Made by a program: the position numbers and the translations under genes. This document shows positions 18,403 to 18,672 of a DNA stretch of 49,836 nucleotides, in pieces (the stretch's first letter is position 1; the number at the start of each line of letters is the position of its first letter). The stretch spans positions 1-49,836 of the forward strand of contig JAFWFL010000023.1 of assembly GCA_017515595.1 (NCBI GenBank). The letters run 5' to 3'. The DNA is from Coriobacteriales bacterium. Lineage in GTDB: Bacteria; Actinomycetota; Coriobacteriia; Coriobacteriales; UMGS124. The notes below the pieces were generated by a model. That model did no database searches. It had not been told where the DNA came from and was given only the letters and a program-made list of their open reading frames with translations.

Positions 18403-18672
18403 ATGACAAGAAAAGAGAAAATGGAATTGTTGCTTTCCAAGGTGGCTGAGGACAAGAAGGAGGAGTTCATCGCCGCTCTCCGCGAAACGACCACCAAGGA
18501 GGAGCGCACAGAGATCCTGAAAAACTTTGGTGTGGAGCTGACTAAGGAAGAATTTGAAGCCATCACAGCAGAAGAGGAAGGCGAGCTCTCTGATGATGAT
18601 CTGGAAAATGTAGCCGGCGGATGCGTATGTATTTGCTGCGCGCATAACTGCGCACGTATTTGTGCTCGTTAA
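18403..18672 (+). CDS. Nif11-like RiPP precursor with six-cysteine core
   Basis: 89 residues; AAAGGAGG lies nine bases before the ATG. Residues 1-60 form a charged helical leader of the Nif11-like kind (EKMELLLSKVAEDKKEEFI, FGVELTKEEFEAI). ELSDDDLENVAGG (61-73) is a double-glycine cleavage site. The predicted core is 16 residues, CVCICCAHNCARICAR, with cysteines at 74, 76, 78, 79, 83 and 87 and the partial repeat CAR-I-CAR. Such a core suits thioether formation by radical SAM enzymes. No C39 protease, ABC exporter or immunity gene is present in the cluster, so maturation and export would need genes elsewhere. It is the last gene before the terminator at 18735. Confidence 0.9.
   Translation: MTRKEKMELLLSKVAEDKKEEFIAALRETTTKEERTEILKNFGVELTKEEFEAITAEEEGELSDDDLENVAGGCVCICCAHNCARICAR

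Follow-up and report, generated by a model that had tools for sequence, protein, structure and literature searches.

A four-gene cassette joining a six-cysteine precursor with a Nif11-type leader to two radical SAM/SPASM enzymes, one of them AcgM-like

What is made from a 16-residue peptide of which six residues are cysteine? The question is raised by a short open reading frame in the window, by which we mean the whole 49,836-nucleotide stretch of DNA analysed. The original prediction had placed such a core directly after a double glycine, ending in the repeat CARICAR, and had read the whole as a leader, a double glycine and a modified, cysteine-rich core. The first statement was confirmed and the second is well supported. 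The reading frame lies exactly where it had been placed, and the cysteines follow the claimed pattern C-x-C-x-CC-x3-C-x3-C with CAR-I-CAR as the ending (6/16 residues); the codon for the second glycine of AGG begins at 18619, and the double-glycine site LENVAGG is followed by CVC of the core. Residues 5-73 of the precursor matched positions 4-68 of the profile TIGR03798 at 35.8 bits, above the cut-off of 32.3; the score on the Pfam Nif11 model PF07862 was 17 bits, below 23.8. Such a density of cysteine is uncommon in this DNA, as at least six cysteines were found in only 4 of 56,874 stop-free 16-residue stretches (six frames of the window), three of the four being the core itself in overlapping registers. 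The genes directly 5' of the precursor encode its probable modification enzymes, two radical SAM/SPASM proteins.

The precursor comes last in a one-strand cassette of four genes (14416-18672), in which it follows a Dph6-like ATP pyrophosphatase and the two radical SAM/SPASM enzymes, here called rSAM1 and rSAM2 (Table 1). No transporter, protease or regulator was recognised within these four genes. The promoter-like site 5' of the cassette came from a scan that returned 5 such sites, against 6.8 in shuffles, and the hairpin 3' of the precursor from one that returned 10 terminator-like sites, against 5.2 expected, so that chance sites are to be expected among both. A dyad, ATGAAT-n7-ATTCAT, overlaps and trails the promoter-like site (window about 14363-14381) and is a possible operator.

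Table 1 Features of the cassette and its flanking signals, in positions of the window
Feature	Position	Strand	Evidence or remark
Promoter-like site TTGACA-17-TATAAT	14336..14364	+	12/12 consensus bases, only such match
Dph6-like N-type ATP pyrophosphatase	14416..15078	+	PF01902 87.3 bits; PDB 3rjz 54 bits
rSAM1, radical SAM/SPASM, 467 aa	15096..16499	+	PF04055 72.4 bits; SPASM PF13186 33.7 bits
rSAM2, radical SAM/SPASM, 605 aa	16503..18320	+	
rSAM2 N-terminal extension, 255 aa, without known family	16503..17267	+	Pfam sub-threshold only
rSAM2 AcgM-like C-terminal part	17289-18317	+	TIGR04340
Shine-Dalgarno-like AAAGGAGG, 9 nt 5' of the precursor ATG	18386..18393	+	by eye
Precursor ORF, ATG start	18403..18672	+	89 aa + stop
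Nif11-type leader, precursor residues 1-73, last residues LENVAGG	18403..18621	+	TIGR03798 match
Core CVCICCAHNCARICAR, precursor residues C74-R89	18622..18669	+	
Precursor stop codon	18670-18672	+	
Intrinsic-terminator-like hairpin with T run, 3' of the precursor	18734..18756	+	

A scan of genome contigs returned two loci. One of them, L038 (5,251 bases, from a Ruminococcaceae RUG11848 MAG, genome G297), carries the complete set of four genes with their order unchanged. The other, L039 of an archaeal MAG, was not kept, its match being a short SPASM one of 35 residues. The window and L038 share 90% protein identity in the ATP pyrophosphatase, 83% in rSAM1, 83% in rSAM2 and 88% in the precursor. 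Their DNA homology (81%) is confined to 14389-18677, with none outside, and thus begins just 5' of the first start codon and ends just 3' of the last stop; the promoter-like site lies outside this shared DNA. The dN/dS values between the two loci were, in gene order, 0.077, 0.089, 0.104 and, for the precursor, 0.071. The two cores differ at 9 of their 16 codons, seven silently and two by replacement (A84G and I86V). The L038 core, CVCICCAHNCGRVCAR, keeps the repeat as CAHN-CGRV-CAR and has none of its six cysteines changed, so that the cysteines prove invariant in the alignment, as the original prediction had asked of homologues; since only one homologue was found, conservation is read here from one pair. 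The leader of L038 scored 29.5 bits on TIGR03798, below 32.3. These substitutions argue that the precursor is coding and under selection. Scanning of viral contigs with the precursor, rSAM1 and rSAM2 revealed no relative, and the plasmid collection held no precursor match and no DNA match to the cassette. Taken together, it is highly probable that the cassette makes a radical-SAM RiPP.

As a general class, radical SAM RiPPs are already known. The cassette shares with the Nif11-class members a Nif11-type leader and a radical SAM gene upstream, and the host has more such loci; unlike these, it adds an AcgM-like enzyme and an ATP pyrophosphatase, and its rSAM1 scored 60.4 bits on TIGR04103, far below the cut-off of 725. 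What is new is the combination of an AcgM-type enzyme bearing a large extension, a Nif11 leader, a core with cysteine at 6 of 16 positions, a second radical SAM enzyme and an ATP pyrophosphatase.

The most informative neighbour, which had no place in the original prediction, is rSAM2. For its residues 263-605 the best model was AcgM (TIGR04340) at 371.6 bits, below the cut-off of 400, followed by the thio(seleno)oxazole maturase SbtM (TIGR04082) at 180.9 bits, below the cut-off of 350, and a third model at 113.9. Three canonical AcgM proteins scored 498-547 bits on TIGR04340 and 169.7, 179.5 and 185.8 on SbtM. The rSAM2 proteins of the window and L038 fall in or beside the AcgM clade. Our tree comprised 71 rows, namely 43 canonical AcgM, 25 others and three long-form proteins (L042 from the window, L110, which is part of the window's protein, and L058 from G297); AcgM and the long-form proteins lay on one side of a branch with support 100/99, and the long-form stem was long, at 1.52 changes per column. 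Identity of the C-terminal domain to AcgM was 38-48%.

The N-terminal extension of rSAM2 belongs to no Pfam family (best E 0.17). Outside the host, residues 1-255 were found in no genome but G297, both among the 300 searched from its family and among the 398 from its phylum. Full-length rSAM2 as the query (E 1e-50) matched 16 of 297 genomes in the order to which the window belongs and 26 of 394 in that of G297, counts that include the genomes of the window and L038; the genome sets of these searches overlap because the groups are nested. Matches from residue 1 were limited to the host (G000) and G297, and those in other genomes began at residue 231 or later. Likewise, four plasmid records gave AcgM-type matches, to the C-terminal part only. 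Structure prediction of rSAM2 from the two sequences reached a pLDDT of 35.5, too low for use.

The comparison with the ACGX systems (AcgA/AcgM, TIGR04340) shows both kinship and distance. The C-terminal domain of rSAM2 groups with AcgM, and the cysteines of the core stand in C-[A/G]-x-x spacing (CAHN-CARI-CAR), the CVCICC half lying outside the repeat. However, AcgM has about 350 residues against the 605 of rSAM2 with its 255-residue extension, inspection by eye of the 20 loci with a CG-repeat ORF showed no Nif11/double-glycine leader on AcgA, and no second radical SAM enzyme or ATP pyrophosphatase was seen within about 1.5 kb on each side of the canonical copies. Canonical AcgA repeats C-G-x-x, for example as ACGTACGAGDK or CGSADP. 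Whereas AcgA has Cys-Gly, the window's core has Cys-Ala in all three repeats and that of L038 in two of three, and there is no ACG repeat in the window's core. By eye, a CG-repeat ORF was present at 20 of 26 canonical AcgM loci; those with none were L012, L015, L044, L048, L055 and L063, of which L012 and L055 start near contig ends and L015 is the host's own canonical AcgM copy. A full-text search, with most subscription papers outside its coverage, returned no paper on the chemistry of the AcgM/ACGX family. ACGX systems also occur on three plasmid records (L085, L086 and L087), from Roseburia, the archaeon Methanosphaera and Subdoligranulum, and the AcgM of the Methanosphaera plasmid is annotated as two pieces. 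By eye, genes of nitroreductase, zinc-dehydrogenase or flavin/4Fe-4S type often lie 3' of canonical AcgM (L059-L087), so that AcgA may have a redox role.

It is the kinship with SbtM that suggests a chemistry for rSAM2. SbtM is reported to remove four hydrogens from peptides with Cys or Sec, the Cys product being a thiooxazole by NMR (PMC11002830). SbtM is the second-best model for rSAM2, and the SbtM model has about 200 positions before its radical SAM part. The N-terminal parts do not match, however, as the alignment of rSAM2 starts at profile position 200; the window's core is without selenocysteine, and the score misses the cut-off. We consider it likely that rSAM2 acts on the cysteines of the core. 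That a thiooxazole specifically would be its product is a tentative proposal by analogy, thioethers being about equally likely.

By eye, the second radical SAM enzyme, rSAM1, carries CNYNCLHC and a complete set of SPASM cysteines. About 85 residues precede its radical SAM domain, and we suspect that they form a putative precursor-binding domain. This region is partly common to host radical SAM enzymes that stand beside other precursor-like ORFs, the rSAM1 matches to L006 and L107 starting at its residue 3 and those to L092 and L094 at its residue 32. An AF2 model of residues 1-91 had a pLDDT of 38.2, likewise too low for use. Among PDB sequences the N-terminus gave no PqqD-like match, only chance ribonuclease matches (E 0.09), and in Pfam it gave no match; nor did rSAM1 match any plasmid at E 1e-25.

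A paralogue of rSAM1 on host contig C82 (41% identity over 306 aligned columns, with a broken frame) bears on the division of labour between the two enzymes. It adjoins a double-glycine precursor-like ORF whose core, ILVIDEPLEIEPASAQHDYC, has one cysteine, so that the rSAM1 type seems to need no cysteine cluster, and therefore the cysteines of the window's core point to rSAM2. In these few cases the rSAM2 type correlates with cysteine repeats and the rSAM1 type with no such need. The C82 ORF matched no Nif11 model, and its leader gave no useful alignment to the leader of the window. We also considered rSAM1 as the enzyme cross-linking the cysteines, which is not our first choice as the one-cysteine core beside the paralogue weakens it.

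The first gene of the cassette resembles Dph6 (PF01902) in its fold family and in the PP-loop, which it keeps as SAGKDS. Members of the Dph6 family catalyse an adenylation that leads to an amide. Unlike its relatives, the protein has their conserved acidic motif replaced, with DDTTDI instead of GENGEY (two paralogues or relatives) or GEGGEF (the solved homologue), and its gene sits in a RiPP cassette. Its score on the diphthine-ammonia ligase model TIGR03679 was 71.5 bits, below the cut-off of 197.3. At E 1e-35 relatives were found in only 3 of 375 genomes, one of them G297, and the other two adjoin genes that we take to be housekeeping.

From these comparisons we infer the catalytic steps, the leader cleavage and the function of the product. 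The Nif11-type leader would be bound by the maturases, and rSAM2 would oxidise core cysteines in C-[A/G]-x-x spacing, most likely by four electrons, to 5-thiooxazoles, like SbtM. Further changes could then be made by rSAM1 and by the ATP pyrophosphatase, which would adenylate and possibly amidate a carboxylate. A C39-type peptidase/transporter encoded elsewhere would cut the leader after AGG; C39 peptidase domains were found in the host on contigs C36 and C119, none in the cassette, and the one on C119 adjoins another Nif11-type precursor and a radical SAM gene. One would expect a short, basic peptide of thiol/thiooxazole character, fit for soft-metal binding or redox work. Taken as a whole, this explanation, a RiPP with cysteines oxidised by rSAM2, further tailored and freed of its leader in trans, has in our judgement slightly less than an even chance of being right. 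Against it stand the missed cut-offs of both AcgM and SbtM, the long branch, Cys-Ala in place of Cys-Gly and the misfit of CVCICC. The cassette's want of a transporter or protease, the single homologue, the lack of papers on AcgM chemistry and the low leader scores (L038 on TIGR03798, the window's precursor on Pfam Nif11) also count against it.

The proposed product, with Cys-derived thiooxazoles and metal binding, would be like the MNIO thiooxazole metallophores bufferins, fontiphorin and bulbicupramide. Two papers describe these metallophores as products of MNIO enzymes, which use non-haem iron, and thiooxazole peptides as absorbing near 305 nm (PMC12538549, PMC12668002); one MNIO-made thiooxazole peptide is reported to bind Cu(I) (PMC12538549). 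Unlike these systems, the cassette carries radical SAM enzymes instead of MNIO. A bolder version of our explanation, which we regard as rather unlikely, would make the cassette an anaerobic radical-SAM counterpart of the MNIO metallophores: an AcgM-family enzyme fused to a new domain would turn the core into a poly-thiooxazole of up to six rings, rSAM1 and a repurposed Dph6-like enzyme would finish it, C-terminal amidation being one option, and the genes would be a unit moving between phyla. A leader-tagged core of 16 residues would be an easier test substrate for the AcgM clade than the long AcgA repeats, and it could show whether thiooxazole formation extends beyond SbtM. The cassette also bears on whether Dph6-like ATP pyrophosphatases were recruited to peptide tailoring.

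The strongest alternative, still a doubtful one, is that the product is a sactipeptide or ranthipeptide, perhaps antibacterial, in which one or both radical SAM enzymes link cysteine sulphur to alpha or beta carbons. The dense cysteines and the double-glycine leader would fit, and rSAM1 and rSAM2 are both SPASM proteins with weak similarity to the StsB model (70.1 and 51.5 bits, respectively) and the PapB model (67.4 and 39.1 bits). These scores, however, are far below the cut-offs of 625 and 340, and similarity of this kind is common to many radical SAM families. With cysteine taking up 6 of 16 residues the core offers few acceptors, and rSAM2 scores far higher on the AcgM and SbtM models.

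It is improbable that the product is a metallothionein-like metal-thiolate peptide whose cysteines are largely free thiols. Such a peptide is suggested by the C-x-C and C-C spacing, the one histidine and the arginines, and by the retention of all six cysteines in L038, but it would have no need for two radical SAM enzymes, although strong purifying selection has retained both beside the peptide, and the cassette holds no metal-transport gene.

The genomic setting bears on the origin of the cassette. The host assembly G000 comprises 3.3 Mb in 134 contigs, and its gene content is reminiscent of Coriobacteriia. The RpoD of the window shares 75% identity with its counterpart in a same-family genome. 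Immediately before rpsP, both same-family genomes (G001 and G002; L111 and L114) have a divergent response regulator, an adjacency also seen in three further loci (L112, L113 and L119); with the window's own locus left aside, 22 of the 27 loci gave no match of this kind, 1.5 kb upstream being inspected. In the window, the response regulator and rpsP are separated by a cold-shock gene and the cassette, and the two flanks, HK-RR and rpsP-KH-rimM, keep the synteny of the relatives. Since the homology to L038 ends at the cassette ends and the same-family relatives are without the cassette, the simplest reading is that it was probably acquired horizontally. No direct or inverted repeat of at least 12 bases was found within either flank, each searched apart. 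The cassette of L038 has a G+C content of 54.6%, compared with 48.3% for a small sample of its MAG (about 29 kb).

An assembly artefact, in which the cassette is real in another organism and was wrongly built into the host MAG, seems to us quite improbable. It would account for the dinucleotide signature of the cassette, which lies at 79 from the contig when the contig's own slices lie at 30 (median) and 40 (95th percentile), and for the occurrence of the best relative in a MAG labelled Ruminococcaceae. However, other slices of the host genome reach 77 at the 95th percentile, and both flanks are syntenic with the relatives (2/2 same-family genomes), which indicates an internal insertion with no joined end, an unusual form of misassembly. 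Two further features of the assembly were noted. It contains two RpoD-type genes that are 81% identical (window 2866-4167 and G000:C59:11870-13165), either a duplication or a mixed bin, and window 1-2700, with an Ig-like repeat protein and its neighbour, lies at a dinucleotide distance of 98 from 18700-30000, compared with 16 and 30 for two other parts.

Among the fates that the original prediction had listed, alpha- or beta-thioethers and metal binding are possible outcomes. A plain disulphide-rich bacteriocin is less probable, since the unit conserved around the peptide includes two radical SAM/SPASM enzymes and an ATP pyrophosphatase. A disulphide-rich bacteriocin exported by way of its double glycine, with radical SAM genes that serve another substrate, is very improbable, as its one positive sign, a weak match to the class II bacteriocin leader model TIGR03949 (18 bits), is below the cut-off of 21.5, no adjoining immunity gene or transporter was recognised, and precursor and enzymes form one conserved unit with homology ending at its edges.

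The host carries further loci of RiPP type. Several Nif11-type precursor-like ORFs were found on contigs C4 (L092), C119 (L094), C54 (L002) and C43 (L003), of which those on C4 and C119 have an adjoining radical SAM gene and that on C119 also a C39 transporter. The locus with the rSAM1 paralogue (L006:226-1734 on the minus strand, together with L138; G000:C82) consists of the double-glycine precursor-like ORF, of 107 residues, and then the paralogue, which is frameshifted with its SPASM end in an overlapping ORF; the divergent operon beside it is presumably for metal-chelate-type ABC import.
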